64,000 nucleotides of DNA from the NCBI RefSeq assembly GCF_040954835.1, contig NC_090709.1, positions 39,908,975-39,972,974 of the forward strand. The letters run 5' to 3'. How positions within the stretch are numbered: the first letter of the stretch is position 1; each line of letters opens with the position of its first letter. Position numbers and translations under genes: made by a program. Below the pieces are notes generated by a model. That model was not told the origin of the DNA. It ran no database searches and worked only from the letters and a program-made list of their open reading frames with translations. This document shows, in pieces, positions 784 through 53,200 of the stretch. This stretch comes from Lepisosteus oculatus. Lineage: Eukaryota; Chordata; Actinopteri; Semionotiformes; Lepisosteidae.

Positions 784-3700
784 GTGGATGAGGACTACAT
801 CCAGGACAAGTTTAATCTCACGGGGCTGAATGAGCAGGTTCCACACTACCGCCAGGCCCTGGACATGATACTGGACCTGGAACCTGGTCAGTACCCATCC
901 AGCATGTGTACTGGAGTGTCCAGTCAGTGTGTCTGTATGAACCCCTCTCTCTCTCAGTGCAGTGTTCATGTACTGGAGTGTCCAGTCAGTGTGTCTGTAT
1001 GAACCCCTCTCTCTCTCAGTGCAGTGTTCATGTACTGGAGTGTCCAGTCAGTGTGTCTGTATGAACCCCTCTCTCTCTCAGTGCAGTGTTCATGTACTGG
1101 AGTGTCCAGTCAGTGTGTCTGTATGAACCCCTCTCTCTCTCAGTGCAGTGTTCATGTACTGGAGTGTCCAGTCAGTGTGTCTGTATGAACCCCTCTCTCT
1201 CTCAGTGCAGTGTTCATGTACTGGAGTGTCCAGTCAGTGTGTCTGTATGAACCCCTCTCTCTCTCAGTGCAGTGTTCATGTACTGGAGTGTCCAGTCAGT
1301 GTGTGTGTATGAACCCCTCTCTCTCTCAGTGCAGTGTTCATGTACTGGAGTGTCCAGTCAGTGTGTCTGTATGAACCCCTCTCTCTCAGTGCAGTGTTCA
1401 TGTACTGGAGTGTCCAGTCAGTGTGTCTGTGTGAACCCCTCTCTCTCTCAGTGCAGTGTTCATGTACTGGAGTGTCCAGTCAGTGTGTCTGTATGAACCC
1501 CTCTCTCTCTCAGTGCAGTGTTCATGTACTGGAGTGTCCAGTCAGTGTGTGTGTATGAACCCCTCTCTCTCTCAGTGCAGTGTTCATGTACTGGAGTGTC
1601 CAGTCAGTGTGTGTGTATGAACCCCTCTCTCTCTCAGTGCAGTGTTCATGTACTGGAGTGTCCAGTCAGTGTGTGTGTATGAACCCCTCTCTCTCTCTCA
1701 GTGCAGTGTTCATGTACTGGAGTGTCCAGTCAGTGTGTGTGTATGAACCCCTCTCTCTCTCAGTGCAGTGTTCATGTACTGGAGTGTCCAGTCAGTGTGT
1801 CTGTATGAACCCCTCTCTCTCTCTCAGTGCAGTGTTCATGTACTGGAGTGTCCAGTCAGTGTGTCTGTATGAACCCCTCTCTCTCTCTCAGTGCAGTGTT
1901 CATGTCCTGGAGTGTCCAGTCAGTGTGTCTGTATGAACCCCTCTCTCTCTCAGTGCAGTGTTCATGTACTGGAGTGTCCAGTCAGTGTGTGTGTATGAAC
2001 CCCTCTCTCTCTCAGTGCAGTGTTCATGTACTGGAGTGTCCAGTCAGTGTGTCTGTATGAACCCCTCTCTCTCTCGGTGCAGTGTTCATGTACTGGAGTG
2101 TCCAGTCAGTGTGTCTGTATGAACCCCTCTCTCTCTCAGTGCAGTGTTCATGTACTGGAGTGTCCAGTCAGTGTGTGTGTGTGAACCCCTCTCTCTCTCG
2201 GTGCAGTGTTCATGTAATAACCCCTGTGTCTCTCTCTGTGTCTCAGACGAGGAGCTGGAAGACAACCCCAATCAGAGCGACCTGATAGAGCAGGCGGCGG
2301 AGATGCTGTACGGGCTGATCCACGCTCGGTACATCCTCACCAACCGCGGGATCGCCCAGATGGTACTCGTCCACGCTCTCTCTCGCTCTCTCTCTCTCTG
2401 TCTCTGTCTGTGCGGGGCTGTCCCTCCGCCAGCGCGGGCGTGTGCTGTCTCTCTGAGTCCCCCTCTCTCTGTCTCAGCTGGAGAAGTACCAGCAGGGAGA
2501 CTTCGGCTACTGCCCCCGGGTCTACTGTGAGAACCAGCCCATGCTGCCCATCGGTGAGTCCGTGCGCCTCTTCTGCTCGTCTCTCTGTCTCTCTCTCTCC
2601 GTCCTCTGCTCCATCTTCCCTCCTCACCCCGGCCTCTCCCTCTGCTCACCCTCCACCTGCTCCGTCTGTCTGTCTCGCACTCTCTCTGCCCTCAACTCCT
2701 CCTCTCCCTGCCCTCTGCCCTCAACTCCTCCTCTCCCTGCCCTCTGCCCTCAACTCCTCCTCTCTCTGCCCTCTGCTCCTCCTCCTTTTGGTCTCCTCCC
2801 TCTGCCCTCTGCTCCTCCTCCCTCTGGCCTCTGTCATTGGCTCCTCCTCTCTCCCTCCTCCCTCTGCTCGACCTCCTCTTGGTCTCCTCCCCCTGCCCTC
2901 TGCTCCTCCTCTCTCTGGCCTCTGCCCTCTGCTCCTCCTCTCTCCCTCCTCCCTCGGCTCCTCCTCCTCTTGCTCTCCTCCCTCTGCTCCTGCTCTCTCT
3001 GGCCTCTGTCATTGGCTCCTCCTCCTTTTGGTCTCCTCCCTCTGCCCTCTGCTCCTCCTCCTCTTGGTCTCCTCCCTCTGCCCTCTGCTCCTCCTCCTCT
3101 TGCTCTCCTCTCTCTGCCCTTAACTCCTCCTCTTTCTGCCCTCTGCTCCTCTTCTCCCTGCCCTCTGCTCCTCCTCCTCTTGCTCTCCTCCCTCTGCCCT
3201 CTGCTTCTCCTCTCTCTCGTGCCCTCTCTTGCTCTCCTCCCTCTGCTCCTCCTCCCTCTCGTGCCCTCTCGTGCTCTCCTCCCTCTGCTCCTCCTCCCTC
3301 TCGTGCCCTCTCGTGCCCTCTCGTGCCCTCTCGTGCCCTCTCGTGCTCTCTGACCTCCCCCCCCCCCCCCCAGGTCTGTCGGACATCCCCGGGGAGGCCA
3401 TGGTGAAGCTGTACTGCCCCAAGTGCATGGACGTCTACACCCCCAAGTCGTCCCGGCACCACCACACCGACGGCGCCTACTTCGGCACCGGCTTCCCTCA
3501 CATGCTCTTCATGGTGCACCCCGAGTACCGGCCCAAGAGGCCCGCCAACCAGTTCGTACCCCGGTAAGAGACGGGGGGGTCGCCCGCCGCCGCCGCCGCC
3601 GCCGCCCTCCCTCCTCGCGCCCTGCCAGCGTGTTGATCTCTCTCTCTCTCCCTCTCCCTCTCCCTCTCCCTCTCCCCCTCTCTCTCCCTCTCTCTCCCTC

Positions 3701-4640: not shown

Positions 4641-4735
4641 CACACGCACACAGAGAGAGAGACAACGGAGCGCCCTCTCTGCGGCTCTCTCTGTGTGCGT
4701 GCGTGCGTGCGCGCCGATCGGTGGGTTAATCCGCG

Positions 4736-8200: not shown

Positions 8201-8762
8201 ACTGGTGTCCTGTCCAGGGTGTGTGTGTGTGTCCTGTGATGGACTGGTGTCCTGTCCAGGGTGTGTGTGTGTGTCCTGTGATGGACTGGTGTCCTGTCCA
8301 GGGTGTGTGAGTGTGTGTGTGTGTCCTGTGATGGACTGGTGTCCTGTCCAGGGTGTGTGTGTGTGTGTCCTGTGATGGACTGGTGTCCTGTCCAGGGTGT
8401 GTGAGTGTGTGTGTGTGTGTCCTGTGATGGACTGGTGTCCTGTCCAGGGTGTGTGTGTGTGTGTCCTGTGATGGACTGGTGTCCTGTCCAGGGTGTGTGA
8501 GTGTGTGTGTGTGTGTCCTGTGATGGACTGGTGTCCTGTCCAGGGTGTGTGTGTGTGTGTCCTGTGATGGACTGGTGTCCTGTCCAGTGTGTGTGTGTGT
8601 CCTGTGATGAACTGATGTCCTGTCCAGGGTGTGTGAGTGTGTGTGTGTGTCCTGTGATGGACTGGTGTCTTGTGCCTGTTGCTTGCTGGGATAGGCACCA
8701 GCTCCCCTGTGCCCCTGTACTGCAGAAAGCTGCTATAAGATGAATTGTTGGGTGAGTGGATG
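5240..8762 (+). mobile_element. SINE-like dispersed element, hugely expanded inside
   Basis: The left flank (5240-5400) has GTGTGGAGTCTGCATGTTCC and a later TCATCCCACAGTCCAGAGAC. The right flank (8665-8762) has CTGTTGCTTGCTGGGATAGG and CACCAGCTCCCC, then an ATGAATTG-like tail. From memory this is the body and tail of a repeat very common in fish genomes; the family name is not certain. A short linker between the two has grown into over 3 kb of tandem copies. Related pieces lie at 38205-38335 (-) and 52790-52866 (-). Confidence 0.7.
5405..8675 (+). repeat. About 41-55 bp VNTR (TGTGATGGACTGGTGTCC unit)
   Basis: About 75 near-identical units of TGTGATGGACTGGTGTCC, TGTCCAGGGTGTG and a variable (GT)n or GTGAGTGTGT linker. 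The core is almost invariant while the GT linker changes length, which points to recent expansion. Long open frames on both strands (for example 8791 to 5231, rich in Thr-His) are periodicity artefacts. The same unit forms arrays at 46290 (-), 48768 (+) and 52866 (-). Confidence 0.95.
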
Positions 8763-12889: not shown

Positions 12890-13375
12890 GGATCTCCAGT
12901 CAGGACAGGAGGCTCTGCTGTACACAGAGGGGGGGTGGGGGACAGGCTGCCCAGCCCTGTGGTTGAAGCCGATACCCTGGCTTCTCTCCAGACACAGCTG
13001 GGTGAGCTTCTCCAGTCAGGACAGGAGGCTCTTCTGTACACAGAGGGGGGTGGGGGTGGGGAACAAGCTGCCCAGCCCTGTGGTTGAAGCCGATACCCTG
13101 GCTTCTCTCCAGACACAGCTGGGTGAGCTCCTCCAGTCAGGACAGGAGGCTCTGCTGTACACAGAGAGGGGTGGGAGAGGGGAACAAACCGATACCCTGG
13201 CTTCTCTCCAGACACAGCTGGGTGAGCTCCTGCAGTCAGGATAGGAGGCTCTTCTGTACACAGAGAGGGGTGGGAGAGGGGAACAAACCGATACCCTGGC
13301 TTCTCTCCAGACACAGCTGGGTGAGCTCCTGCAGTCAGGACAGGAGGCTCTTCTGTACACAGAGAGGGGTGTGTG
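12890..13375 (-). repeat. Inverted copies of the 121-bp satellite
   Basis: Four units of the satellite seen at 9105-10935, here on the opposite strand. The last two are shortened by loss of the segment between the GGGTGGGAGAGG-like part and GATACCCTGG. Together the two loci form a large inverted pair about 3 kb apart. Confidence 0.85.
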
Positions 13376-19200: not shown

Positions 19201-20852
19201 GCTTCTGATCGGTGGGGGGGAGCAGCTGAGAACGAGCCGAACCGGCCGAACCGGCTGGGTGGCATTTCTCTCTCTCAATTCAATTCAATTCAAGGTGCTT
19301 TATTAGCATGACCGATGGGTACAATCAGTGTTGCCAAAGCAAATAAAATTAACATAGAACAAAACAAAAAATAGAAGTAAAATAAAATCTACAGACATTT
19401 ACAACAAAGACATATTATAAAATATTGACATATACTGTAGGCAGCTGGAGCATTATTGGGAAACGGACTCACTGTTCCTCAGGCTGTGACCGGAGATCTC
19501 TCTCTCTCTCTCCAATTCAAGGTGCTTTATTAGCATGACCGATAGGTACAATTGGTGTTGCCACAGCAAATAAAAATAATAAAATTAACATGGAACAAAA
19601 AATAAAATAAAATCTACAGACATTTACAATAAAGATGTACAATAACATTTACAATAAAGATGTATTGTATAATATTGACATATACTGTAGGCAGCTGGAG
19701 CATTATTGGGAGACGGACTCACTGTTCCCCAGGCTGTGACAGGAGATCTCTCTCTCTCTCTCTGGCACACCGGGTGGGAGAGCCGGGGTACAGCTGGGGG
19801 TTGAAGTTGGTGGCCCTTTTTTTTTTTTTTTTTTTTAAGGTGCCTACCGGAGGCAGATGGTAGTGGGGTCCTGGTACTATCTCTGGAGGCCCTGCTGTTC
19901 TTTCTGTTCTGCCCCAGAGCCCGGGTGCGGACCAGTCGGTCAGACTGGGCTGGGCTGGGGGGGACAAACGCGCAGCGTGTTTTGGGGACCCTGTTATTAA
20001 AGACTCCCCCCCCAAAAAAATGAAGGAAAAAGCTTAGACAGTTGTGATGTGGTAAATGCAGATGAAGTCTGTTTTGTTTTTTTGGCCTCTGTACCCCCAC
20101 TCTCGGTGCAGGTTGGATCCTTGGAGGAGGGGGAGACCTGGGGTACCCCAGTGTGTGTGTGTGTGTCTCAAGCCTGCTGCTTGAGGGATGGGGAGCCTCA
20201 GACCACCCCCCCCCCCCCTCCAGGGAGGTGATGGCTGCTGTGTTCAGTCGTCCTGTGGGACTGATGGAGTGCTCAGTGCCTCACCCTGCTGTGTGTGTGT
20301 CTACTCTTTCCACAGGGGAGGCCCTGAGGTGCTACAAGTGCGACGTGGGCTTCTGGAACCTGTGTGTGACGTCGATCATCAACTGTACAGGGTCCACTGA
20401 CCAGTGCTTCAGTGGGATTGGGAAAGCAGGTGAGATTAATCTGTGTCTCTGTCTGCACTGTTCATGTACTGGAGTGTCCAGTCAGTGTGTGTGTATGAAC
20501 CCCTCTCTCTCTCAGTGCAGTGTTCATGTACTGGAGTGTCCAGTCAGTGTGTGTGTATGAACCCCTCTCTCTCAATGCAGTGTTCATGTACTGGAGTGTC
20601 CAGTCAGGGTGTCTGTGTGAACCCCTCTCTCTCTCCTCTCTAGCTGGGTTTGTGGATATCAACCAGAAGGGCTGTCTCCCCGGCGCCAGTTGCAACCTGG
20701 TCTCCAACGTGACCTTCGCCGGCACCAGCCTCTACACCATGAACAAGACCTGCTGCGCCACCGACCTGTGCAACGGCGCCGGCGCGCCCGGGCTCTCGGC
20801 GCTGTCCGCGGTCGCCGTGGCGACGGCCTGGCTGGCCGCGGGCCTGGTCTGA
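16300..20852 (+). CDS. Ly6/uPAR-domain GPI-anchored protein, copy 1
   Basis: Three exons: 16300-16351, 20316-20429 and 20644-20852 (TGA), coding 124 aa. A signal peptide (MNKVVFAVSAVVLLFGVG) leads into a three-finger LU domain starting LRCYKCDVGFWNLC. The domain has ten cysteines and ends CCATDLCN. N-glycosylation motifs are NCT, NVT and NKT. The hydrophobic tail (LSALSAVAVATAWLAAGLV) after NGAGAPG fits GPI attachment. Such proteins sit on the outer cell surface; the ligand is unknown. The position beside csnk2b matches mammalian LY6G5B/LY6G5C, but orthology is unproven. The 52-nt first exon and phases match copy 2, suggesting tandem duplication. Intron 1 is about 4 kb. Confidence 0.9.
16352..17799. 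other. First part of Ly6 copy 1 intron 1, largely single copy
   Basis: GC-rich single-copy sequence with short poly(A)/poly(T), GGT and GGA runs. No further exon could be supported. Confidence 0.5.
17800..17965 (+). repeat. About 1.3 units of the 121-bp satellite in Ly6 copy 1 intron
   Basis: One full and one partial copy of the unit described at 9105-10935, + strand. It may be a seed or a remnant of an array. Confidence 0.85.
18540..18775 (+). repeat. 41-bp minisatellite in Ly6 copy 1 intron
   Basis: Six near-perfect units of CTCTTCTGCGGTGTGAGGGC, TCCCTCTGGTGGC and TGAGC. The purity suggests recent expansion. Confidence 0.9.
19277..19748 (-). mobile_element. Two tandem LINE 3' UTR tails
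   Basis: Two truncated copies (19277-19497 and 19513-19748) of the LINE 3' end described at 13581. Each starts with AATTC repeats and GGTGCTTTATTAGCATGACC. Each ends at the same GGAGCATTATTGGGA and CTGTTCC part and runs into a CT tract. Only 3' UTR is present. Confidence 0.85.
20455..20640 (+). repeat. 62-bp family array in Ly6 copy 1 intron 2
   Basis: Three units fill the 214-bp intron. The last unit's ATGAACCCC and CT tract become the functional polypyrimidine tract and acceptor of exon 3 (20643/20644). Orientation is sense to the gene. Confidence 0.92.
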
Positions 20853-22667: not shown

Positions 22668-25158
22668 ATGAACCGGCTCCTGGGCGCCGTCCTGGCTGTG
22701 GCCCTGTGCTCCACGGCCGGTGAGTACTGGGGACGGAGGGGACAGGCTTCTGTCCCGGGGGTCCTGGGAATGAGAGCAGGCCTGGGTGAGCTGGGACAGG
22801 GACACGAGACACCAGGCGGGGAGACTAGCGGACAGACGGACGAGCAGGCAGGCAAGAAAGCAGACGGACAGGCGAGGAGGCAGGCAGGAAAGCAGACAGT
22901 CGGATAGACAGACAGACAGACAGGCGAGGAGGCAGGCAGGCAGGAAAGCAGACAGTTGGATAGACAGACAGACAGGCGAGGAGGCAGGCAAGAAAGCAGA
23001 CAGACGAATAGACAGACAGACAGGCGAGGTGGCAGGCAAGAAAGCAGACAGACAGACGGACGAGCAGGCAGGCAAGAAAGCAGACGGATAGACAGACAGA
23101 CAGACAGGCGAGCAGGCAGGCAGGAAAGCAGATAGACGGACGGGGGAGCAGGAAAGGAGATAGACAGACGGACAGACAGGCAAGAAAGCAGACAGACGGA
23201 TAGACAGACAGACAGACAGGCAGGGAAGCAGACGACAGACAGACAGGCGAGCAGGCAGGCAGGTGACAGGCAGACGGACAGACAGGCGAGCAGGCAGGCA
23301 GGTGACAGGCAGACGGACAGACAGGCGAGCAGGCAGGCAGGTGACAGGCAGACGGACAGACAGGCGAGCAGGCAGGCAGGTGACAGGCAGGATAGCAGAC
23401 AGACGAGCAGGCAGGTGACAGGCAGACAGACAGACAGGCAGGCAGGCAGGTGACGGGCAGACAGACAGACGGGCAGGGTGCCACTACCTCAGTGCTTGAG
23501 CAGCTGTGGTTTTTTGTCCCGCCCGTTGGGATCTGTCCCAGAGAGAGAGAGAGAGAGGGAGAGAGAGAGTCTGTGTTTGTGTTTCAGTCAGTCAGTGTGT
23601 CAGTCAGTCAGGGTGTCAGTGTTTCAGTGTGTCAGTCAGTCAGGGTGTCAGTCAGTGTGTCTGTGTTTCAGTGTGTCAGTCAGTCAGGGTGTCTGTGTTT
23701 CAGTGTGTCAGTCAGTCAGGGTGTCAGTGTGTCATTCAGGGAGTCAGTGTTTCAGTGTGTAAGTCAAGGTGCAGAACGATCGCTGTGCGTCTCCCAGGTG
23801 GGGTTGCTGGTTCAGAATGACTGGTGTCCGTCTCCCAGGTGGGGTTGCTGGTACAGAATGACTGGTGTGCGTCTGCTCCTTTTACAAGAACTGCTGCTCA
23901 CAGTTTCTGCTCCGTTGTGCCTCCCCTGTACAGTGGAGACTTTGAAGTGCAACAAATGCAACTTTGGATTCCTAAACCTGTGCGTCTCGACGCAGACCAA
24001 CTGTGCCGGTACAGAGCAGTGCTACAGCCTGACAGCAAGTAAGAGACTCGGAGACTCTCCCACCTCTCCCCCCTCTCTCTCACCCCTTCACCCCTCTGCC
24101 CTCTCTCTCTCTTTCTCACCCCTCTGCCCTCTCTCTCACCCCTCTCCCCTCTCTCTCTCTCTCTTTCTCACCCCTCTGCCCTCTCTCTCACCCCTCTGCC
24201 CCCTCTCTCTCTCACCCCTCTCCCCTCTCTCTCTCTCACCCCTCTGCCCTCTCTCTCACCCCTCTGCCCCCTCTCTCTCTCACCCCTCTCCCCTCTCTCT
24301 CTCTCACCCCTCTGCCCTCTCTCTCTCTCACCCCTTTTACCCCTCTCTCACCCCTCTCTCTCTCACCCCTCTGCCCTCTCTCTCTTTCTCACCCCTCTCC
24401 CCTCTCTCTCTCTCTCTCACCCCTCTGCCCTCTCTCTTTCTCACCCCTCTGCCCTCTCTCTCACCCCTCTCCCCTCTCTCTCTTTCTCACCCCTCTCCCC
24501 TCTCTCTCTCTCTCACCCCTCTGCCCTCTCTCTCTTTCTCACCCCTCTGCCCTCTCTCTCACCCCTCTCCCCTCTCTCTCTCACCCCTCTGCCCTCTCTC
24601 TCTCTCTCTCACCCCTCTCCCCTCTCTCTCTCTCTCTCTCACCCCTCTGCCCTCTCTCTCTCACCCCTCTCCCCTCTCTCTCAATTCAATTCAATTCACT
24701 TCAAGGTGCTTTATTAGCATGACCGATGGGTACAATCAGTGTTGCCAAAGCAAATAAAAATAATAAAATTAACATAGAACAAAACAAAAAGTAGAAGTAA
24801 AATAAAATCTACAGACATGTTACAGACATTTACAACAAAGACATATTATATAATATTGACATACTCTCTCTCTCTCTCTCACCCCTCTCCCCTCTCTCTC
24901 TCTCTCTCACCCCTCTCCCCTCTCTCTCTCCCAGATTTTGGCTCGAACTTCGCCTCCACCTTCGTCTCGAAGGGCTGCCAGTCTCAGCTCGGCAGCCAGC
25001 AGTGCAACACGACGATCATTCAGCCCTTCCTGCTCTCGAACTACACGCAGACCATCAGCTGCTGCACCACGGACCTGTGCAACAGCGCCGGCGCCGCCCG
25101 CCTGTCCGCCCTGACGGGGGGGGCCCTGGCCGCCGTCTGGCTCCTGGGGCTGGCCTAG
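22668..25158 (+). CDS. Ly6/uPAR-domain GPI-anchored protein, copy 2
   Basis: Three exons: 22668-22719, 23934-24038 and 24935-25158 (TAG), coding 126 aa. A signal peptide (MNRLLGAVLAVALCSTA) precedes an LU domain beginning LKCNKCNFGFLNLC. It has ten cysteines and ends CCTTDLCN. NTT and NYT are potential N-glycosylation sites, and a hydrophobic C-terminus suggests GPI anchoring at the cell surface. Exon 1 is 52 nt, as in copy 1, all phases agree, and the C-x2-C-x2-GF-x-NLCV block is shared, so the two are tandem paralogues. The residue spacing in finger 2 differs. Function and ligand are unknown. Confidence 0.9.
22820..23475 (+). repeat. GACA/GGCA-rich minisatellite in Ly6 copy 2 intron 1
   Basis: Irregular units of GACAGACAGACAGGCGAGCA, GGCAGGCAGG and AAAGCAGACGG, then a more regular 46-bp unit with GGTGACAGGCAGACGGACAG. 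A related GTCAGTCAGTCAGGGTGTCA repeat follows at about 23585-23765. Both are intronic. Confidence 0.85.
24050..24680 (+). repeat. CT-rich minisatellite in Ly6 copy 2 intron 2
   Basis: Units of CACCCCTCTGCCCTCTCTCT or CACCCCTCTCCCCTCTCTCT with variable CT length fill the intron on either side of a LINE tail and lead into the acceptor at 24934. Confidence 0.9.
24683..24865 (-). mobile_element. LINE 3' UTR tail inserted in the CT array
   Basis: AATTC repeats followed by GGTGCTTTATTAGCATGACC and the AT-rich 3' UTR, as at 13581. It is truncated after ATAATATTGACATA and flanked on both sides by the CT minisatellite. Confidence 0.85.
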
Positions 25159-26440: not shown

Positions 26441-26544
26441 CTCTGTAAAACAATACATGACGTGTCTCGGGTTTCTTGCTATGGTCCTGTTTCTGGGGAG
26501 ATTGGTCCCACAACAACCAAAGTGACGGACTATGGACCTGTGTC

Positions 26545-27580
26545 TCTGTCAGTGTGTGTGTATGAACCCCTCTCTCTCTCAGTGCAGTGTTCATGTACTG
26601 GAGTGTCCAGTCAGTGTGTCTGTATGAACCCCTCTCTCTTTCAGTGCAGTGTTCATGTACTGGAGTGTCCAGTCAGGGTGTGTGTATGAACCCCTCTCTC
26701 TCTCAGTGCAGTGTTCATGTACTGGAGTGTCCAGTCAGTGTGTGTGTGTGAACCCCTCTCTCTCTCAGTGCAGTGTTCATGTACTGGAGTGTCCAGTCAG
26801 TGTGTCTGTGTGAACCCCTCTCTCTCAGTGCAGTGTTCATGTACTGGAGTGTCCAGTCAGTGTGTGTGTATGAACCCCTCTCTCTCTCAGTGCAGTGTTC
26901 ATGTACTGGAGTGTCCAGTCAGTGTGTGTGTATGAACCCCTCTCTCTCTCAGTGCAGTGTTCATGTACTGGAGTGTCCAGTCAGTGTGTCTGTGTGAACC
27001 CCTCTCTCTCTCTCAGTGCAGTGTTCATGTACTGGAGTGTCCAGTCAGTGTGTGTGTGTGAACCCCTCTCTCTCTCAGTGCAGTGTTCATGTACTGGAGT
27101 GTCCAGTCAGTGTGTGTGTGTGAACCCCCCTCTCTCTCAATGCAGTGTTCATGTACTGGAGTGTCCAGTCAGTGTGTGTGTGTGAACCCCCCTCTCTCTC
27201 AATGCAGTGTTCATGTACTGGAGTGTCCAGTCAGTGTGTCTGTGTGAACCCCTCTCTCTCTCAGTGCAGTGTTCATGTACTGGAGTGTCCAGTCAGTGTG
27301 TGTGTGTGAACCCCCCTCTCTCTCAGTGCAGTGTTCATGTACTGGAGTGTCCAGTCAGTGTGTCTGTGTGAACCCCTCTCTCTCTCAGTGCAGTGTTCAT
27401 GTCCTGGAGTGTCCAGTCAGTGTGTCTGTATGAACCCCTCTCTCTCTCAGTGCAGTGTTCATGTACTGGAGTGTCCAGTCAGTGTGTGTGTATGAACCCC
27501 TCTCTCTCTCAGTGCAGTGTTCATGTACTGGAGTGTCCAGTCAGTGTGTGTGTGTGAACCCCCCTCTCTCTCAATGCGGT
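26545..27580 (+). repeat. 62-bp family array, intergenic
   Basis: About 17 units of the 62-bp family found in csnk2b and Ly6 introns, + strand. The sequence on either side is single copy. This is the only copy of the family lying outside a recognised intron. Confidence 0.93.
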
Positions 27581-27584: not shown

Positions 27585-27780
27585 GTGTAATGTATTGACT
27601 TAACTCCTTCTCCCTCCCCTTATCTAAATCCTTCTTTTTATTGTGGCTTTCAAAACAAATACCACAAACTGGTTCTCCAGCTGTCATCACCTTTTTTTAT
27701 GTGAAACTGCACTATTACTTATCTCAGTGTGCACTGATGTGTGTTCTTAAATGTAGCCTTTGGGAAAAATAGCATTTCAG
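27585..27780. other. Short unique spacer
   Basis: AT-richer single-copy DNA between two arrays. An in-frame TAG at 27754-27756 closes the frame just upstream of the 42-bp array. Confidence 0.6.
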
Positions 27781-35520: not shown

Positions 35521-35840
35521 ACTGTGTGTGAGTGTGTGTGTCTGGTATGTGTCTCTGTGTGTGTGTCTGTCTGTTTATGAGTGTGTGTGTCTGGTATGTG
35601 TCTGTGTGTCTGTCTATGAGTGTGTGTGTGTGTGTGTTTGACTGTTTATGAGTGTGTTTGTCCAGGGTGTGTCTGTGTGTGTGTCTGTCTGTTTATGAGT
35701 GTGTGTGTCTGTCTGTTTATGAGTGTGTGTGTCCGGTGTGCATCTGTGTGTGTGTGTCTGTCTGTTTATGAGTGTGTCTGTCTATGAGTGTGGGTGTCCA
35801 GTGTGTGAGTGTTTGTGTCCAGTGTGTTACTGTGTGTGAC
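35521..35840 (+). repeat. GT-rich degenerate repeat
   Basis: Irregular units around GTGTGTGTCTGTCTGTTTATGAG directly abut the 42-bp array. It lies between that array and the msh5 3' end. Confidence 0.8.
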
Positions 35841-37079: not shown

Positions 37080-40000
37080 CTACAGGATGTCGCCCGCAGA
37101 GGGCAGCACCTCCTCTCTCAGGTACTGGGGCAGGTCGACGGAGGGGCTGTCCAGGTCCAGGCCCAGAAACCGGTCCACGATGGCCCGGCACCTGGGGGGC
37201 AGACAGAGACGGGGGGGGTTTGGGGCGCGATGAGGAGATCCACAGTCTCCCGGAGAGAGCCCACCACCTGGGGGCGCCGTTTGACTTGCGGTGACGGGAT
37301 CGCGCTCTCTCTCTCTTTCAGCCCGCAGCACTGGTGAAATGTTCACAGTGACGTGTCAAAACCCCCAGTGTCGAGTCACAGAGGAAACATGCAGGTCACA
37401 CACAGACACACCGGACACACACACTCACACAGACACACACCGGACACACACACTCACACAGACACACACTCACAGACACACCAGACACACACTCACACAC
37501 ACACCGGACACACAGACACACTCACAGACACACCAGACACACACTCACAGACACACTGACACACTCACAGACACACACCGGACACATAGACACACTCACA
37601 GACACACCAGACACACACTCACACACTCAAACACCAGACACATACTCAAACACAGACACACACTCACACACTCAAACACCAGACACATACTCAAACACAG
37701 ACACACACTCACAGACACACACTCACACACTCAAACACCAGACACATACTCAAACACAGGCACACACTCACACACTCAAACACCAGACACATACTCAAAC
37801 ACAGACACACACTCACAGACACACACTCACACACTCAAACACCAGACACATACTCAAACACAGGCACACACTCACACACTCAAACACCAGACACATACTC
37901 AAACACAGACATACACTCACAGGACACACATACTCAGAAACAGACAGACACACACACTCACACACAGACACACACCAGACACACAGACACACACTCACAG
38001 ACATACGCACCGGACAGACACACAGACACACACAAAGACACACACTCACTCACAGACACACCAGACACACACACACTCACAGACACACACTCACACACTC
38101 AAACACCGGACACATACTCAAACACAGACACACACTCACAGGACACACATACTCAGAAACAGACAGACACACACACTCACACACCAGACACACACACTCA
38201 CACCAGGGCCAGTTTTAACCCCCCAGCCTGTCTGTAAACCCACGCCGACCCGGGGAGAACATGCAGACTCCACACAGACAGCGCCCCCTGTCTGGTCTTG
38301 AGCCCAGAGCCCCGGCGCTGACCCCTGCGATGTGGGCAAGTGCTAAACAGACTGCGGGTGTGTGTGTCAGAGGGGAGCGGGGCGGGGGCGGGGGGGCGCT
38401 CTCTGACCTGGCGGCCTGCTCCGTGCTGGACGGGCGATCGACGCGCTCGATGGCCTTGCCCGCTCGGTACAGCTCCGACACCTGGAACACACAGGACAGC
38501 CGTCCTCACACACGGAACACCTGCTGGGCTCCTCGGGACAGACACTGTCCTGAGCCTTGTCTTCAACTGACACAGGGGATCACACACACACACAGGGGAT
38601 CGGGGACACACACACACTGACCTCCACGGCCCTCTGCACCAGTGGGGGTGGCAGTCCTGCCAGCGTGGCGATGTTGGCGGCGTGACTGGACTGGCACACG
38701 CCCTCCTTCAGCTGGTAGAAGAACACCAGCTCCTCCCCGTCCAGAGCTGTCTCCAGGGTCTGAGTACAGGACGGCCCTGTTAGTGTCACTGGGGCTGGGT
38801 CTGTCGGTGTGTCACTGGGGCTGTCAGTGTGTCACTGGGGCTGTCAGTGTGTCGTCTCCAGGGTCTGAGTACAGGACAGCCCTGTTAGTGTCACTGGGGC
38901 TGTCGGTGTGTCGTCTCCAGGGTCTGAGTACAGGACAGCCCTGTTAGTGTCACTGGGGCTGTCAGTGTGTCGTCTCCAGGGTCTGAGTACAGGACAGCCC
39001 TGTTACTGCTGGGGCTGGGTCTGTCGGTGTGTCACTGGGGCTGTCACTGTGTCACTGGGGCTGTCAGTGTGTCGTCTCCAGGGTCTGAGTACAGGACAGC
39101 CCTGTTAGTGTCACTGGGGCTGTCGGTGTGTCACTGGGGCTGTCGGTGTGTCGTCTCCAGGGTCTGAGTACAGGACGGCCCTGTTAGTGTCACTGGGGCT
39201 GTCAGTGTGTCGTCTCCAGGGTCTGAGTACAGGACAGCCCTCTTACTGCTGGGGCTGGGTCTGTCGGTGTGTCACTGGGCTGTCGGTGTGTCACTGGGGC
39301 TGTCAGTGTGTCATCTCCAGGGTCTGAGTACAGGACGGCCCTGTTAGTGTCACTAGGGCTGTCAGTGTCGTCTCCAGGGTCTGAGTACAGGACGGCCCTG
39401 TTAGTGTCACTGGGGCTGTCGGTGTGTCACTGGGGCTGTCGGTGTGTCACTGGGGTGTCTGGGGTATTACCAGGTACTGCAGCAGGGGGGACTGGGGCAG
39501 CAGGCCCATCTGCACCAGGCTGTGGAAGTTGGTGGACAGCAGGACGTGTGGGCAGTGCTGGGGGCCCTTCCTCAGCCAGTGCCGGACGCAGGCGGCCAGC
39601 AGGGACACGCCGTCCACCTGTGGGCCGGTCGGACACGGGGGGGGGGGGGGAGAGAGAGTGAGGTACTCTGGGATTAGACAAACAGCCTTCCCCGAATTCA
39701 GAAATCTCATCCCAGAGTTCCCACACCTGCCAGCATCCCAAAGGGTCCCAATCCTACTGGGAGAGGGAGGAGGGAACTCCGCTGAACTGGCAGCCCAGTG
39801 TGTGATCTCCTGTCCCAGCCTGAGGAACAGACAGTGAGCCTGTCTCTCAATAATAATAATCCAGTGTGTGATCTCCTGTCCCAGCCTGAGGAACAGACAG
39901 TGAGCCCGTCTCTCAATAATAATAATACAGTGTGTGATCTCCTGTCCCAGCCTGAGGAACAGACAGGGAGCCTGTCTCTCAATAATAATAATACAGTGTG

Positions 40001-43000
40001 TGATCTCCTGTCCCAGCCCGAGGAACAGACAGTGAGCCCGTCTCTCAATAATAATAATACAGTGTGTGATCTCCTGTCCCAGCCTGAGGAACAGACAGTG
40101 AGCCCGTCTCTCAATAATAATAATACAGTGTGTGATCTCCTGTCCCAGCCTGAGGAACAGTGAGTCTGTCTCTCAATAATAATAATACAGTGTGTGATCT
40201 CCTGTCCCAGCCTGAGGAACAGACAGTGAGCCTGTCTCTCAATAATAATAATACAGTGTGTGATCTCCTGTCCCAGCCTGAGGAACAGACAGTGAGCCCG
40301 TCTCTCAATAATAATAATACAGTGTGTGATCTCCTGTCCCAGCCTGAGGAACAGACAGTGAGCCCGTCTCTCAATAATAATAATACAGTGTGTGATCTCC
40401 TGTCCCAGCCTGAGGAACAGACAATGAGTCTGTCTCTCAATAATAATAATACAGTGTGTGATCTCCTGTCCCAGCCTGAGGAGCAGTGAGCCTGTCTCTC
40501 AATAATAATAATAATACAGTGTGTGATCTCCTGTCCCAGCCTGAGGAACAGACAGTGAGCCCGTCTCTCAATAATAATAATACAGTGTGTGATCTCCTGT
40601 CCCAGCCTGAGGAACAGACAGGGAGCCTGTCTCTCAATAATAATAATACAGTGTGTGATCTCCTGTCCCAGCCTGAGGAACAGACAGTGAGCCTGTCTCT
40701 CAATAATAATAATACAGTGTGTGATCTCCTGTCCCAGCCTGAGGAGCAGTGAGCCTGTCTCCCAGTCATGCTCCATCCGCCTACAGAATATGTCAATATT
40801 TTAGGATATGTCTCTGTTGTAAATGTCTGTAGATTTTATTTTACTTCTATTTTTTGTTTCGTTTCACGGGAATTTTTTTATTTTTATTTGCTTTGGCAAC
40901 ACTGATTGTACTCATCGGTCATGCTAATAAAGCCCCTTGAATTGGATTGAATTGAGAGAGAGAGAAGGGGGTCAGGAGGAACAGTGACTCGCTCCCCACC
41001 CGATCTTCCTCCTCCTCCTCCTCCTCACCGTGTTGGTCCCTTTCCCGAACTCGTCTATCAGCACCAGGGAGCTGCCTGTGCTGTCGTTCAGAGCCGACGC
41101 CATCTGACAGACAGGAGAGAGGGAGACACTCGCTGATCCCCGGACTGGACACTCCAGACAGACAGAGGGGTTCATACAGACTCACTGACCCCCGGACTGG
41201 ACACTCCAGACAGACAGACAGAGGGGTTCACACAGACTGGACACTCCAGACAGACAGACAGAGGGGTTCACACAGACTGGACACTCCAGACAGACAGACA
41301 GAGAGGTTCACACAGACTGGACACTCCAGACAGACAGACAGAGGGGTTCACACAGACTGGACACTCCAGACAGACAGACAGAGGGGTTCACACAGACTGA
41401 CCCACAGACTGGACACTCCAGACAGAGAGAGGTTCACACAGACTGACCCACAGACTGGACACTCCAGACACTCCAGACAGACAGACAGAGGGGTTCACAC
41501 AGACTGACCCCCGGACTGGACACTCCAGACAGACAGACAGACAGAGAGGTTCACACAGACTGGACACTCCAGACAGACAGACAGAGGGGTTCACACAGAC
41601 TGACCCAGAGACTGGACACTCCAGACAGAGAGAGGTTCACACAGACTGACCCACAGACTGGACACTCCAGACAGACAGACAGACAGACAGAGGGGTTCAC
41701 ACAGACTGACCCCCGGACTGGACACTCCAGACAGAGAGAGAGAGGTTCATACAGAGTCACCGACCCACAGAGTGGACACTCCAGACAGACAGAGAGAGAG
41801 GTTCATACAGAGTCACTGACCCCCGGACTGGACACAGACCTGGTTGAGGTCGATCATGAAGGTGGACAGCCCCAGGGACACGGACTCCCGGCTGTGCATG
41901 CGGGTGTAGATCCCGTCCATCAGCCCGACCTCTGCCCGCGCCGCCGGCACGTTGGAGCCAATCAGGGCCATGAACACGATGAGCCCCACCTGCCGGGGGG
42001 GGGGGGGGAGGGGCCGACACCGTCATCCAATCAGAGCGCGGCTGGGTCCGGGGGGACAGGCCTGCTGGGGGTTAGCAGTGTGACCTCACAACAACCCCAG
42101 GGTCATGGGGCCACAGGGTCGGGGGTCAGTGGACAGGACAGACCTTTAACAGTACGTGGCCCACTGACAATGGGCTCCAGGGTCATGGGGTCAGGGGTCA
42201 GTGGAGGGGACAGACACCTTTAACTGTACCCAGCCTGCTGACCGTGGACTCCAGGGTCAGGTCGTGGGGTCACGGGGTCGGGGGTCAGCGGAGAGGAGAG
42301 AGAGCCCGCTGACGGTGGACTCCGGGGTCAGGTCGTGGGGTCGCGGGGTCGGGGGTCAGCGGAGAGGAGAGAGAGCCCGCTGACGGTGGACTCCGGGGTC
42401 AGGTCGTGGGGTCACGGGGTCGGGGCTCAGTGGAGAGGATAGAGAGCCCGCTGACGGTGGACTCCGGGGTCAGGTCGTGGGGTCACGGGGTCGGGGGTCA
42501 GCAGAGAGGAGAGAGAGCCTGCTGACGGTGGACTCCGGGGTCAGGTCGTGGGGTCACGGGGTCGGGGGTCAGTGGAGAGGATAGAGAGCCCGCTGACGGT
42601 GGACTCCGGGGTCAGGTCGTGGGGTCACGGGGTCGGGGGTCAGTGGAGAGGATAGAGAGCCCGCTCACCTGCTTCAGGTAGATGCTCTTCCCGCTGGAGT
42701 TGGGCCCGGTGATGAGCTTGACCTTCCCCGCCGCGCCGGCGCTGACGGTGGGGTTCGGGACGAACACAGGGGCGCACAGCTCCACCAGCGGGTGCCTGCG
42801 GTTGGGGGGGGGGGCGCAGCACACAGCACACAGGGCCGGTTTCATACGGGGGGGGGTTAGAAAGAGTCAGCGCAGGCGAGTGCACTGCGCTCACAGAACA
42901 GAGGAGCTTTTCGGCTCCAGGGGCACCGTCCCCGACGTCGGCCTCCAGTTCCACTCCATGAGAGAGAGAGAGAGACACAATTTCCAGGCGTGCGCAGCGC

Positions 43001-44393: not shown

Positions 44394-46735
44394 CTGGGAG
44401 AGAGAGGGGCTCACACACACACTGGACTGGACTGGACACTCCAGTACATGAACACTGCACTGAGAGAGAGAGGGGTTCATACAGACACACTGACTGGACA
44501 CTCCAGTACATGAACACTGCACTGAGAGAGAGAGGGGTTCATACAGACACACTGACTGGACACTCCAGTACATGAACACTGCACTGAGAGAGAGAGGGGT
44601 TCACACAGACACACTGACTGGACACTCCAGTACATGAACACTGCACTGACAGAGAGAGGGGTTCATACACACACACTGACTGGACACTCCAGTACATGAA
44701 CACTGCACTGAGAGAGAGAGGGGTTCATACAGACACCCTGACTGGACACTCCAGTACATGAACACTGCACTGAGAGAGAGAGGGGTTCATACAGACACAC
44801 TGACTGGACACTCCAGTACATGAACACTGCACTGAGAGAGAGAGGGGTTCATACAGACACTGACTGGACACTCCAGTACATGAACACTGCACTGAGAGAG
44901 AGAGGGGTTCATACACACACCCTGACTGGACACTCCAGTACATGAACACTGCACTGAGAGAGAGAGGGGTTCATACAGACACACTGACTGGACACTCCAG
45001 TACATGAACACTGCACTGAGAGAGAGAGGGGTTCATACAGACACACTGACTGGACACTCCAGTACATGAACACTGCACTGAGAGAGAGAGAGGGGTTCAC
45101 ACAGACACACTGACTGGACACTCCAGTACATGAACACTGCCCTGAGAGAGAGAGGGGTTCACACAGACACACTGACTGGACACTCCAGTACATGAACACT
45201 CCACTGAGAGAGAGAGAGAGGGGGGGTTCATACAGACACACCTCTGATGTCGCAGTGCAGGTCTCCCAGCATGCTGTCCAGCTCCTTGGTGCGCTCACTG
45301 CGGTAGTGAAGTCGGTCTCCTGACAGGAACTGAGAGGAAGGGAAGGTGGACAATCACACGTACAGCGGGGAGACAGAGCCCGGACACCGCGCGGGGGGGT
45401 AACAGAGAGGGGGCGGCCGGCCGGCGGAGACTCACCATGAAGTCCAGCCCCTGGATGACGAAGTCCTCCTTGTCCGCCATGCTGGGCAGCCGGGGGACGG
45501 ACAGCAGGAAGCCGATCTGGGAGGAGAAGGAGCGGCAGGAGGGGTCAGCTCGCTCCGCAGAGAGGTGGACAGGGTCCTCACACGGAGAGTGGACAGCAGT
45601 GGGTATGTAGATGACACTGCAGTGTGGACAGGTGTGGACAGGGGCCCTGACCAGCGGTATGTAGATGACACTGCAGTGTGGACAGGTGTGGACAGGTGTG
45701 GACAGGGGCCCTGACCAGCGGTATGTAGATGACACTGCAGTGTGGACAGGTGTGGACAGGTGTGGACAGGGGCCCTGACCAGCGGTATGTAGATGACACT
45801 GCAGGAGGGGATGCGAGGATCCAGGTTCTCCAGCTCCTTGCGAGCGACATCCGTCAGGAAGTCAGACAATCCCATCATCCTCCTCTTCTCTGAGAGAAAC
45901 AGAGACAGGGAGACAGAGAGAGAGCTCAACACCGCCCCGAGAGAGCTCAACACCGCCCCGAGAGACAGGGAGAGAGCTCAACACCACCCCGAGAGACAGG
46001 GAGAGAGCTCAACACTGCCCTGAGAGAGCTCAACACCGCCCTGAGAGACAGGGAGAGGGCTCAACACCGCCCTGAGAGAGCTCAACAGAGAGACATAGAC
46101 AGCAGCCCGCTGCACACAGACACAGAGTGTCTCTCACTCACTCTCATCAATGGCTGGGTCCACATTGGGTTTGACGGTGACCCGGTTCTCAGTCAGACTG
46201 GCCTCGAAATCCACCTGCCGCGGCGACACAGAGACCCCGGTGAGACCCCCTTGCATGCGTGTGCGTGACGTGACGGCGCTCGTCTGTCTGTCCAACACAG
46301 GACACACACACACACACTCTCACACACCCTGGACAGGACACCAGTCCATCACAGGGGACACACACACACTCACACACCCTGGACAAGACACCAGTCCATC
46401 ACAGGACACTCACACACCCTGGGCAGGACACCAGTCCATCACAGGACACACACACACACCCTGGACAGGACACCAGTCCATCACAGGACACACACACACA
46501 CCCTGGACAGGACACCAGTCCATCACAGGACACACACACACTCACACACCCTGGACAGGACACCAGTCCATCACAGGACACACACACACACACACACTCA
46601 CACACCCTGGAGAGGACACCAGTCCATCACAGGACACACACACACTCACACACCCTGGACAGGACACCAGCCCCTCACAGGACACACACACACACACACA
46701 CACACACCCTGGACAGGACACCAGCCCCTCACAGG

Positions 46736-46766
<31 letters not shown>

Positions 46767-47237
46767 GGACAGGACACCAGTCCATCACAGGCAGAGGATT
46801 TCGGTGGAGTTTCGTATACAGGCCGCCCCTGTGGACACAGAGCGGGTCTTTACCACTTTGCTGATGAGGCTGGCGATGTAGTGCAGGTCGTCGCTGAAGG
46901 CCCCGGAGATCTCTCGGAACAGCAGGATCGACTGAGGGAGGGCCTGCACGGTGTCTCTGATGCACACCGCGCTGTACACTGTCTGCAGAGAGAGAGGGGG
47001 GTTCATGCAGACACACCGCCTGAGTGGACAGCCGCTCGGGAAGGCTCTCTCACCTTATACAGGCACTGCCAGTCGTGGACATTGGTCTGAGAGAGAGTCA
47101 TCCTGCGGATCAACATCTGCGGGAGACAGAGAGCGAGGGTGAGACAGCTCTGCAGTCTCACTGACCCCCACGCCAACAGGAAGAAGCACTGCAAACATGC
47201 TTACAGACGGTATGGTCAGGGTGTCAGAGTGCTGTAC

Positions 47238-47281
<44 letters not shown>

Positions 47282-50200
47282 AGTTACCGGGACTCTCCTG
47301 ATGTTTTTCTGGCAGTCCTGCAGGGTGTCAGAGTGTCATACACTGTCTGTGTGTGTGTGTGTGTGTGTGTGAGAGTTACCGGGACTCTCCTGATGTTTTT
47401 CAGGCAGTCCTGCAGGGTGTCAGAGTGTTGAACACTGTGTGTGTGTGTGTGAGAGAGAGAGTGTTACCGGGACTCTCCTGATGTTTTTCAGGCAGTCCTG
47501 CAGGGTGTCAGAGTGTCATACACTGTCTGTGTGTGTGTGTGTGTGAGAGAGAGTGTGTTACCGGGATTCTCCTGATGTTTTTCAGGCAGTCCTGCAGGGT
47601 GTTCAGCACCTCGTTGTTTCGGGGGGAGCAGAAGAACTGAACCACCTCCTGTCTCTTCATCAGCTCGCCCAGACTGCGAGTCGGGTGCAGCAGCCAGCGC
47701 CTGGGACAGAGGGGAGAGAGAGGGTTTAGAGGGGAGGAGAGGGGAGAGGAGAGAGGGTTTAGACAGGAGAGGGGAGAGGAGAGAGGGTTTAGACAGGAGG
47801 AGAAGGGAGAGGGAGAGGAGAGGGAGGGTTTAGACAGGAGGAGAGGGGAGAGGGAGAGGAGAGAGAGGGTTTAAAGAGGAGGAGAGGGGAGAGACAGGGT
47901 TTAGACAGGAGAGTGGAGAGGAGAGAGGGTTTAGAGAGGAGAGGGGAGAGGGAGAGGGAGAGGAGAGAGGAGAGAGGAGAGAGGAAGAGGGGGGAGAGAG
48001 GGTTTAGACAGGAGGAGAGGGGAGAAGGAGAGGAGAGGAGAGAGAGAGGGTTTAGAGAGGAGGAGAGGGGAGAAGGAGAGGAGAGGAGAGAGAGAGGGTT
48101 TAGAGAGGAGGAGAGGGGAGAGGGAGAGGAGAGAGGAGAGAGGGGAGAGGTAGAGGGGGAGAGAGAGGGAAAAGAGGGAGAGAGGGGGAATTCAGAGAGG
48201 GGGAGAAAGAGGGAGAGGGGGAGACAGGAGAGGAGAAGGGTCAAGCGAGGGAGAGGGAGGGAGGGCGGCGCCTTACCGCAGCAGCCTGGAGCCGAACGGA
48301 CTCCTGCAGCGGTCCAGGAGCCCTGCGGCAGCGAGACAGCGAGAGGGTCAGGACGGGGGGCCGGGGCGAGCAGCGTCTCTCCGCGGGACAAAATAAAAAG
48401 GGATCAAGAGCCGGAAGGTGGCGGCGCAGAGGGAGGGGGAAAGAGGACGAGGAGAGGCACAGGGCCGCGGGCCTTGCGGGGGCGTCAGGGACGGTCGCGC
48501 GGTCTCTGTCTCCCTCTGGTGGCGGCTGGGAGTGGCGCGCGAGGAGGCGAGGCGGGGCGCTGCGCGGACTTCCCGGACGGGCCTGGGGCCGAGACGCGAG
48601 ACGCGAGACTCACCGTACAGGCTGAGGCCCTCCTTCACGCCGGACGCCAGCTTGTACACGGAGGGGTGGAGCTCAGACTTGAAGACCTGCAGGGCGCTGA
48701 GGCGGACAGGCAGACGCACAGAGAGAGAGAGAGAGAGAGAGTTTCACGGGCCACCGCCACCCCCTGTGTCTGTCCTGTGATGGACTGGTGTCCTGTCCAG
48801 GGTGTGTGAGTGTGTGTGAGTGTCATGTGATGGACTGGTGTCCTGTCCAGGGTGTGTGAGTGAGTGTGAGTGTGAGTGTGTCCTGTGATGGCCTGGTGTC
48901 CTGTCCAGTGTGTGTGAGTGTGTGTGTGTCCTGTGATGGACTGGTGTCCTGTCCAGGGTGTGTGAGTGTGTGTATGTGTCCTGTGATGGACTGGTGTCCT
49001 GTCCAGGGTGTGTGAGTGTGTGTGTGTGTCCTGTGATGGACTGCTGTCCTGTCCAGGGTGTGTGAGTGTGTGTGTGTGTGTGTCCTGTGATGGCCTGGTG
49101 TCCTGTCCAGGGTGTGTGAGTGTGTGTGTGTCCTGTGATGGACTGGTATCCTCTCCAGGGTGTGTGTGTGTGTGTCCTGTGATGGCCTGGTGTCCTGTCC
49201 AGGGTGTGTGTGTGTGTGTGTCCTGTGATGGACTGGTGTCCTGTCCAGGGTGTGTGAGTGTGTGTGTGTCCTGTGATGGACTGGTGTCCTGTCCAGGGGT
49301 GTGTGAGTGTGTGTGTGTCCTGTGATGGCCTGATGTCCTCTCCAGGGTGTGTGAGTGTGTGTGTCCTGTGATGGACTGGTGTCATGTCCAGGGTGTGTGA
49401 GTGTGTGTGTGTCCTGTGATGGACTGTTGTCCTGTCCAGGGTGTGTGAGTGTGTGTGTGTCCTGTGATTGACTGGTGTCCTGTCCAGGGGTGTGTGAGTG
49501 TGTGTGTGTCCTGTGATGGCCTGATGTCCTCTCCAGGGTGTGTGAGTGTGTGTGTCCTGTGATGGACTGGTGTCATGTCCAGGGTGTGTGAGTGTGTGTG
49601 TGTCCTGTGATGGACTGTTGTCCTGTCCAGGGTGTGTGAGTGTGTGTGTGTCCTGTGATTGACTGGTGTCCTGTCCAGGGGTGTGTGAGTGTGTGTGTGT
49701 CCTGTGATGGCCTGGTGTCCTGTCCAGGGTGTGTGAGTGTGTGTGTGTCCTGTGATGGCCTGGTGTCCTGTCCAGGGTGTGTGTGAGTGTCCTGTGATGG
49801 ACTGGTGTCCTGTCCAGGGTGTGTGTGTGTGTCCTGTGATGGACTGGTGTCCTGTCCAGGGGTGTGTGAGTGTGTGTGTGTCCTGTGATGGCCTGGTGTC
49901 CTGTCCAGGGTGTGTGTGTGTGTCCTGTGATGGACTGGTGTCCTGTCCAGGGTGTGTGAGTGTGTGTGTGTGTCCTGTGATGGACTGGTGTCCTGTCCAG
50001 GGTGTGTGAGTGTGTGTGTGTGTCCCGTGATGGAGTGGTGTCCTGTCCAGGGTGTGTGAGTGTGGGTGTGTCCTGAGATGGACTGGTGTCCCCTCCAGGG
50101 TGTGTGAGTGTGTGTGTCCTGTGATGGACTGGTGTCCTGTCCAGGGTGTGTGAGTGTGTGTGTGTGTCCAGTGATTGACTGGTGTCCTGTCCAGGGTGTG

Positions 50201-53200
50201 TGAGTGTGTGCCTCACGCTCACCTGTACGTGTCCTTGTCCAGGTAAACCCCGTCGGCCCTGGAAGAGAACGACAGGTGGGAGTTGGCGCGGGCGCGGCCT
50301 GCTCTGTTCCTCCCCGGCCAGCTCCGGCCCTCTGCTCCTCCGCGGTCACACAGGAAGCAGGGCGCCCGGGCGACTCTCGCTCCGTGAGACCCCACAGCGG
50401 GGGGGGGGGGGCTCAGGCAGGCAGTGGTGAAAGGAGACGGGGGCGAGGGAAAGAGAGCGCAGGAGGAGGAGGAGAGGAGGCGCCCCCAGCGGGGACTCGG
50501 CGGCAGGCTTACAGGGAGAACTTGCGCAGGGCCAGGACGGGCACCCCCACGATGCTGTCCTCCAGCTCCACCCCCACTCTCCGCCTCTCCAGCAGCTTGA
50601 GGAGCCCCCCGAGGGAGCGCACCTGGGGCCCAGAGAGAGAGGGGGGGTTCAGACTGACACTCCAGTACATGAACACGGGGCGGTGTGGCGGCTCTGGGGC
50701 TCAGGATCTGCGCCTGGGGCTGGGAGGTTGCCGGTTCGAATCCCGCGGCCGGCAGAGGAATCCTACTCCGTTGGGCCCCCGAGCAAGGCCCTTAACCCCC
50801 AGCTGCTCCAGGGGTGCCGTATAAATGGCCGACCCTGCGCTCTGACCCCCCAGCTTCTCTCTCCCTGTCTGTGTGTCTCCTGGAGAGCAAGCTGGAGTCT
50901 GGGAGAGGACACATTCCTCATGCAAGACATTGTATATCTGATCTAATCTTACACTATATTGAAAGGATAAAGACAGGGACCCACCATCTGTGTGCAGTTT
51001 AAAGGGAGAGAGGAGCCAAGGTAGGACAGTCTCTCCGTCTCTGTCAGGGAGGCTGGGAGGAAGGATAGATGAGCAGACAGCAGCCTCTGTTTGCTGACCT
51101 CAAAACCTGAGAAAGAGACGTTCATTCACTGACTGGACACTCCAGTACATGAACACTGCACTGAGAGAGAGGGGGGTTCATACAGACACACTGACTGGAC
51201 ACTCCAGTACATGAACACTGCACTGAGAGAGAGAGGGGTTCATACAGACACACTGACTGGACACTCCAGTACATGAACACTGCACTGAGAGAGAGAGGGG
51301 TTCATACACACACACTGACTGGACACTCCAGGACATGAACACTGACCTGAGAGAGAGAGGGGTTCACACAGACACACTGACTGGACACTCCAGTACATGA
51401 ACACTGCACTGAGAGAGAGAGGGGTTCACACACACACACTGACTGGACACTCCAGTACATGAACACTGCACTGAGAGAGAGAGGGGTTCATACAGACACA
51501 CTGACTGGACACTCCAGTACACGAACACTGCCCTGAGAGAGAGAGGGGTTCACACAGACACACTGACTGGACACTCCAGTACATGAACACTGCACTGAGA
51601 GAGAGAGGGGTTCATACACACACACTGACTGGACACTCCAGTACATGAACACTGCACTGAGAGAGAGGGGGGTTCACACAGACACACTGACTGGACACTC
51701 CAGTACATGAACACTGCACTGAGAGAGAGAGGGGTTCATACAGACACACTGACTGGACACTCCAGTACATGAACACTGCACTGAGAGAGAGAGGGGTTCA
51801 CACAGACACACTGACTGGACACTCCAGTACATGAACACTGCACTGAGAGAGAGAGGGGTTCATACACACACCCTGACTGGACACTCCAGTACATGAACAC
51901 TGCACTGAGAGAGAGAGGGGTGGTGACGAGGTGAGAGTGAGTAACAGGGAGGGGCGACTGCAGGCAGAGGGAGTGACCGGGCCCGTCCCCGGGCTGCCCG
52001 ACAGGCTCCTCTAATCTCTCACCGAAGTCGGTGTTCGGGTACAGCACCACCTCCGGCTTATCTCCCGCACTGTCGCCTGGGACAACCGAGCAGAAACACA
52101 CAAACACAGGACAGGGGAGGGAGGGAGGGAGAGAAAGTCGGTATCAGAAGCGAAGCTGTCTAGTGTCCAGGCACGGTACATTGTCCCACAGAGAGAGCCC
52201 TCGGACGGGGCTGTGGAGAAACCCCACTATCTGCTCTTCCACAGCCAGGAACCCCCTCCCCGCCCCACCCCACTCCGGCCCGGAGAGTCAGGAGGGAGGG
52301 CGGCGCGGCGCAGGGGCTGATGGGTCGCGCTGGGGACAGTCAGAGCGTTTCGGGGGCGCGGGAGGGTGTCTGGCCAGGCTGGGGGGGCGGAGGGGTCACC
52401 ACTCCTGACCGGGCCAGAGAGGGCGTCTGGCACACAGAGTGGTGGACGGGTCGGGAGGAACGCTCCCTAGACGGCGGTACTGGGAACGTCCTCTGGGGCT
52501 CCAGCACGGCCAGAAAACGGTCGCTCATGAGTGACCGGGCCCGGGCCGGAGAGCTATCCGTCTCCGAGACCGTCTGTCTCTATCTGTCTGTTACTCCGTC
52601 TCTCTCTAACTCTGTATGTTCCTGTGTGTCTCTCTGGGTGAGTCCCTCTCTCTCTGTCTGTCCCTCTGCCTCCTCCCTCACCCAGTCTCCTCAGGAACTC
52701 GGCCACGCTGCGGTCCTGCTTGGCGCTGGTGACGATGGCCCTGGGGGTCAGCTCCTGGAGGGCTGGGACAGAGACAGAGGGAGACGGGGGTGATGCAGCT
52801 TTATCAAGCACAGGGTCAAGAGGGAGCTGAAGTCTATCCCAGCAAGCAACAGGCACAGGGCAGGGTTCACCCTGGACAGGACACCAGTCCATCACAGGAC
52901 ACACACACACTCACACACCCTGGACAGGACACCAGTCCATCACAGGACACACACACACTCACACACCCTGGACAGGACACCAGTCCATCACAGGACACAC
53001 TCACACACTCACACACCCTGGACAGGACACCAGTCCATCACAGGACACACACACACACTCACTCACACACCCTGGACAGGATACCAGGCCATCACAGGAC
53101 ACACTCACACTCACACACCCTGGACAGGACACCAGTCCATCACAGGACACACTCACACACACCCTGGACAGGACACCAGTCCATCACAGGACACACTCAC

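Follow-up and report, generated by a model that had tools for sequence, protein, structure and literature searches.

How does one and the same 62-bp repeat unit come to occupy introns of three genes, always in the direction of transcription, and in several cases to form the very end of the intron? This question is raised by a stretch of 64,000 nt of DNA from Lepisosteus oculatus (hereafter the window), which contains csnk2b and two Ly6-like genes on the plus strand and msh5 on the minus strand. Tandem repeats make up 59% of the window, and 20 of the 27 introns of our set hold more than 60 bp of tandem repeat.

The introns were defined as follows. Twenty introns of msh5 and four of csnk2b were placed by spliced alignment with human protein sequences as guides; the set of 27 comprises these 24 protein-guided introns, the csnk2b intron that is cut by the window start, and one intron from each Ly6 gene. 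The model of the last msh5 intron (38589..37192) is poor. The predicted junctions of csnk2b (c.175, c.291, c.367, and c.557) match the positions of published human splice variants, which are given as c.175+2, c.292-1, c.292-2, c.367+2, and c.558-3. Those of msh5 agree with human c.271+1 and c.1495+1, the latter taken from one row of a table; a further human variant, c.647+1, is given within a sentence of a paper that otherwise deals with c.271+1. We number the msh5 introns as in human, with c.271 taken as intron 3 and on the assumption that no intron was missed in between, and this count bears out the intron numbers 16 and 11 of the original prediction. Compared with the PDB, one msh5 frame matched Msh3 only weakly; nine stop-to-stop frames yielded no informative Pfam domain, and two Pfam matches above the curated cut-off, of 12 and 13 residues in one frame, were set aside as low complexity. 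Weight matrices for splice sites were trained on 18 introns of the window, a small sample from which the seven introns carrying the 62-bp family, the intron of Ly6 copy 2, and the cut csnk2b intron were left out.

Read in the sense direction, the unit consists of GTGTGTCTGTATGAACCCC, a CT tract, CAG, and then about 31 more bases. Judging from its letters, ATGAAC within the unit is a possible branch point, and the unit as a whole looks like a 3′ splice-site module. One AG of the sense unit reaches 11.3, a score within the span of real acceptors (2.7 to 25.2 for the 18 training introns), on a matrix that is a coarse yardstick since three acceptors of the family themselves score low on it (1.3, 2.9, and 8.7). 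A profile built from 26 units finds 84 matches of at least 20 bits in the window and none in 40 locally dinucleotide-shuffled copies, where the top score is 17.6; the reversed window tops at 7.9. The period-62 arrays hold 3 to 21 copies each, head to tail and with a unit inside the range of about 10–100 bp that is usual for minisatellites, and among the matches listed the units agree by 93–97% in four of the five arrays. Thus, the predicted amplification of a single unit at five loci (csnk2b, Ly6 copy 1, an intergenic site, and two sites in msh5) is confirmed. We rejected a reading of the unit as a structured RNA element, as the fold of two units was not significantly more stable than shuffles (z −1.56; 16 of 200 shuffles equally good) and Rfam gave no match in the whole window at gathering scores. 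A 31-base pattern of the unit had no match in collections of virus and prokaryote contigs, which carries little weight, and a text search of the literature with five unit fragments found none.

The position of the arrays relative to the intron ends differs between the genes. In csnk2b, about 21 copies (907..2218, plus strand; period-62 stretch 907–2216) lie in the intron 887–2246 at human position c.175; the array starts at 907 and not at the originally proposed 897, and it stops about 28 bases short of the acceptor, where the remaining bases may be a decayed unit. In Ly6 copy 1, three copies (20454..20643, plus strand; period-62 stretch 20454–20634) lie in the intron 20430–20643, and the last CT tract continues through 'CTCTCTAG' into the acceptor TAG, so that the acceptor is made of the unit tract plus a few bases. 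Hence the idea that the last Ly6 unit is the acceptor holds insofar as the CT tract of the unit contributes to it, but the tract runs on and a few extra bases are included. The remaining genic copies are in msh5, all on the minus strand. The array in intron 5 (52022..51107) covers 51107..51921, with a period-62 stretch at 51127–51921 and profile matches at 51109–51907, and its last unit, which is also its most divergent one, finishes on the predicted acceptor AG. Intron 16, at human position c.1495, is formed entirely by the array (44394..45241; period-62 stretch 44394–45216, with profile matches extending to 45241): the predicted donor is the GT of a unit and the predicted acceptor the AG of a unit, and the spliced model therefore agrees with the claim that this array runs from the real donor to the real acceptor. 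Intron 11 measures only 71 bp (47053..46983), and its 3′ part is a single unrepeated copy of 23.9 bits (46983..47030; profile 46988–47030) which forms the intron end, also as claimed. The CT tract and AG of the unit itself thus form the predicted acceptor in introns 5, 11, and 16.

In addition to the five loci known before, we found two more places in msh5. A single degenerate copy of 27.3 bits (50623..50676 on the minus strand; profile 50676–50633) lies just before the acceptor of intron 6 (50984..50623), and intron 19 (41839..41104, minus strand) is taken up almost entirely by a diverged array whose repeats, of 40 and ∼60 bp, are related to the unit, with profile matches of 20 to 35 bits at 41160–41835 and one of 11.8 bits at 41116–41157. 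The acceptors of introns 6 and 19, like that of Ly6 copy 1, are looser versions of the unit end. When the unit is compared with the last 70 bases of all introns, six of the seven family introns score 31 to 100 and finish on or just past the CT tract and AG of the unit; the csnk2b family intron scores 39, which stems from the array tail, and none of the other 20 introns in the set of 27 exceeds 28. Directly upstream of the single copy in intron 6 there is a stretch at 50700–50930 (minus strand) which is similar to 43810–44040 (plus strand); both appear SINE-like by eye.

The fifth array (26540..27577, plus strand, ∼16.7 copies) falls in no modelled gene and lies between Ly6 copy 2 and an array of a 42-bp unit. 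The latter, at 27757–35580 on the plus strand, consists of 184 copies of SADNKATAEHSAVK and has a single frame open over 2607 codons with no internal stop. Its substitutions number 145, 40, and 298 by codon position (4, 3, and 12 distinct variants), and it may either encode a giant repeat protein or be a minisatellite of recent origin. The intergenic region is flanked by ten-base repeats at 25173–26195 and 36136–37053, which by eye resemble reverse complements of each other, and a 121-bp repeat at 9110–10931 has an inverted relative at 13090–13371. A second dispersed minisatellite of the CCTGTGATGGACTGGTGTCC type occurs in both orientations at 5402–8673, 46308–46791, 48765–50210, and 52868–53939; three of its arrays are in msh5, 68 to 105 bases from the acceptors, and serve as a useful control.

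The relations among the 62-bp arrays were analysed with 60 complete units from the five arrays. These fall into 25 haplotypes; eight of them are found in two or more arrays, the uncommon variants A10C and T28G+C33G among them. Units differ on average at 2.00 positions within arrays versus 2.28 between them; about 10% of the unit variation lies between arrays, and a within-array mean as low as the observed one arose in 3 of 2000 label permutations. None of the arrays is monophyletic in a tree of the units, but the labels are less mixed than in all of 1000 shuffles (25 label changes versus a mean of 33.7 and a minimum of 26). This residual array identity means that exchange between arrays is not free. 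A unit order common to two arrays was not found in any of the ten pairs, the top pair being reached by 33 of 1000 permutations and non-significant after ten tests, and block copying of arrays in order is accordingly without support in these pairs. The pattern fits exchange between arrays, or a draw from a common pool, with some local turnover afterwards. In msh5 introns 5 and 16 the last units, which carry the acceptor, are the most divergent ones (59.7 and 50.1 bits, versus means of 77.9 and 77.2 bits for the interior units), as is expected if array edges escape exchange.

We suggest that a module from the 3′ end of an intron was amplified in tandem and spread to existing introns by homology-guided exchange, and consider the chances for and against this proposal to be about even. 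The module would comprise the possible branch point, the CT tract, and CAG, joined to a spacer of ∼31 bp; it would have arisen as an intron end, probably one of msh5, and been amplified inside introns. From there, copies would have entered other introns that were present before, at their 3′ ends, either by gene conversion or by re-insertion of excised repeat DNA, with the host acceptor's CT tract and CAG as a guide, and the last AG would be the one used in the RNA. As these elements are common at acceptors and would guide sense, in-phase joining, the fixed strand and phase of the copies could stem from the mode of entry and not from the removal of antisense copies. Unrepeated copies finish msh5 introns 6 and 11, in line with a spread from an intron end, and together with the old array in a third intron they suggest that msh5 is the older home of the unit. 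The original idea, in which the 3′ end of an intron gave rise to the unit and copies then passed from intron to intron, thus gains from the module-like unit, the two single-copy ends, and the variants shared by three genes, whereas the direction of spread is one that we infer, and one array is intergenic. The intergenic location also speaks against the exchange, as do the csnk2b array that falls short of its acceptor, the unit order that is not common to arrays, and the missing divergent edge in the csnk2b and intergenic arrays (last full units of 78.5 and 76.0 bits). A more far-reaching version, which we put forward tentatively and expect rather to fail than to hold, is that a vertebrate minisatellite propagates itself by usurping 3′ splice sites and so finds a safe place in old introns with its orientation fixed. 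The unit would bring a predicted working acceptor, and a copy replacing the host intron end would be spliced out and hence tolerated.

The strand rule itself is strict within the genes: every profile match of at least 20 bits is sense, with none on the plus strand in msh5, none on the minus strand in csnk2b, and all three matches of Ly6 copy 1 on the plus strand. The prediction that orientation follows transcription in all genic arrays was therefore correct. Its four genic cases alone correspond to a two-sided binomial value of 0.125, and the seven of seven family introns to 0.016 under independence, an assumption that does not hold for them. This uniform orientation is what favours selection that purges antisense copies from introns, an explanation that was offered originally and that we now judge very unlikely. 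On the same matrix as above the best AG of the antisense unit scores −4.8, versus 11.3 for the sense unit, and its GTs are weak (1.5 at most). The antisense unit thus lacks an acceptor-like signal and is expected to be less harmful; it is sense, not antisense, copies that should disturb splicing. Moreover, unrelated CT-rich arrays obey the same rule. The pyrimidine fraction in the sense direction is at least 0.58 in 14 and at most 0.42 in none of 24 genic arrays; with the same cut-offs applied to the plus strand, the 29 intergenic arrays include 7 pyrimidine-rich and 5 pyrimidine-poor ones. Pyrimidine-rich arrays approach the acceptor to less than 30 bases in 10 of 13 introns versus 0 of 7 others (Fisher 0.0031), with cut-offs that were set after seeing the table and with four of the 13 introns carrying the 62-bp family and a fifth its diverged relative. 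Over all 20 repeat-bearing introns there is no clear bias, the arrays being nearer the acceptor in 11 and nearer the donor in 9.

Sense orientation, splice signals at both ends, and one intron composed entirely of units would also be expected of an introner-like element that generates new introns. Nevertheless, the array-bearing introns csnk2b c.175 and msh5 c.1495 are also human introns, so that no intron was gained at these two of the seven family introns, the two that were checked, and we regard this origin as extremely unlikely. Could instead each array have grown locally from its own splice junction, the likeness between introns being a convergence on CT tracts? Unrelated repeats indeed come close to acceptors: the cut csnk2b intron (1..783, plus strand) is filled by a 37-bp unit with a CT tract, whose array finishes 21 bases before the acceptor, the remainder resembling a last altered copy, and in the corresponding intron of Ly6 copy 2 (24039..24934, plus strand) a CT-rich unit of 24–28 bp makes up 74% of the intron, broken by other DNA, and reaches the acceptor. 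Two msh5 exon ends are in addition repeated in tandem together with their donor (47252–47602 with 3.8 copies and 45622–45804 with 2.9 copies, both minus strand), which is the mirage pattern proper (see below). For the 62-bp unit, however, comparison of its bases downstream of the AG with 53 exon ends gave no match above the chance level (top 0.010 per test, non-significant over 53), which sets it apart from the mirages proper, whose unit includes the exon side of the junction. As near-identical units with shared variants occur in three genes, an independent origin is not plausible; we consider local growth quite unlikely as a general explanation, and it could apply to the founding array alone. 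The rival that we rate highest is survivorship: a minisatellite dispersed throughout the genome lands anywhere, and only harmless intronic copies, sense and joined to the acceptor, persist. The repeat load of the window and its introns (59%; 20 of 27), the second dispersed unit (42–48 bp) with its four arrays, the intergenic 62-bp array, and shared variants that fit a large pool all agree with it. The second family is at the same time an argument against it, with three msh5 arrays in both orientations and 68 to 105 bases away from the acceptors, and in-phase single copies at two acceptors are unexpected from random landing; on the whole we think survivorship improbable, though still a serious candidate.

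Dispersed satellite arrays of Drosophila spread by circular DNA or by conversion and, like the 62-bp arrays, have variants common to separate arrays; to our knowledge they are not known to end at splice acceptors. The nearest known kind is the 'mirages' of amphioxus, described in the Adh3 and globin genes as minisatellite-like repeats at splice junctions with AG/GT signals in the units; the array boundaries escape homogenisation, and regular splicing is reported to be kept (PMC3087553). Tandem repetition at splice junctions, units bearing AG/GT, and boundaries outside homogenisation are the common traits. In contrast, the mirage unit spans the exon–intron boundary and is described gene by gene (PMC3087553), whereas the 62-bp unit has no recognisable exon part and is common to introns of three genes. 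We class the 62-bp family with the intron-junction minisatellites. Introners and introner-like elements are likewise co-linear with transcription, shared between genes, and devoid of known transposon features, but they create introns (PMC3443670), while the 62-bp units stand in tandem and both introns that were checked coincide with human ones. The stranded intronic repeats of Daphnia resemble our case in favouring CT and other T-rich motifs on the sense strand; they differ in being short simple motifs, and the account consulted describes neither a long unit common to several introns nor a connection with the acceptor (PMC3152781). None of the literature matches listed deals with one unit common to the intron ends of several vertebrate genes, in a search that covers the subscription literature thinly.

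If intron ends are indeed copied between genes together with the repeat, the 3′ splice site would be a portable and exchangeable part of a gene. This would provide a concrete cause for intron growth and for the strand bias of intronic repeats, and the 62-bp family would be a vertebrate counterpart to the mirages of amphioxus and a system in which the transfer of sequence from intron to intron may be followed in populations.
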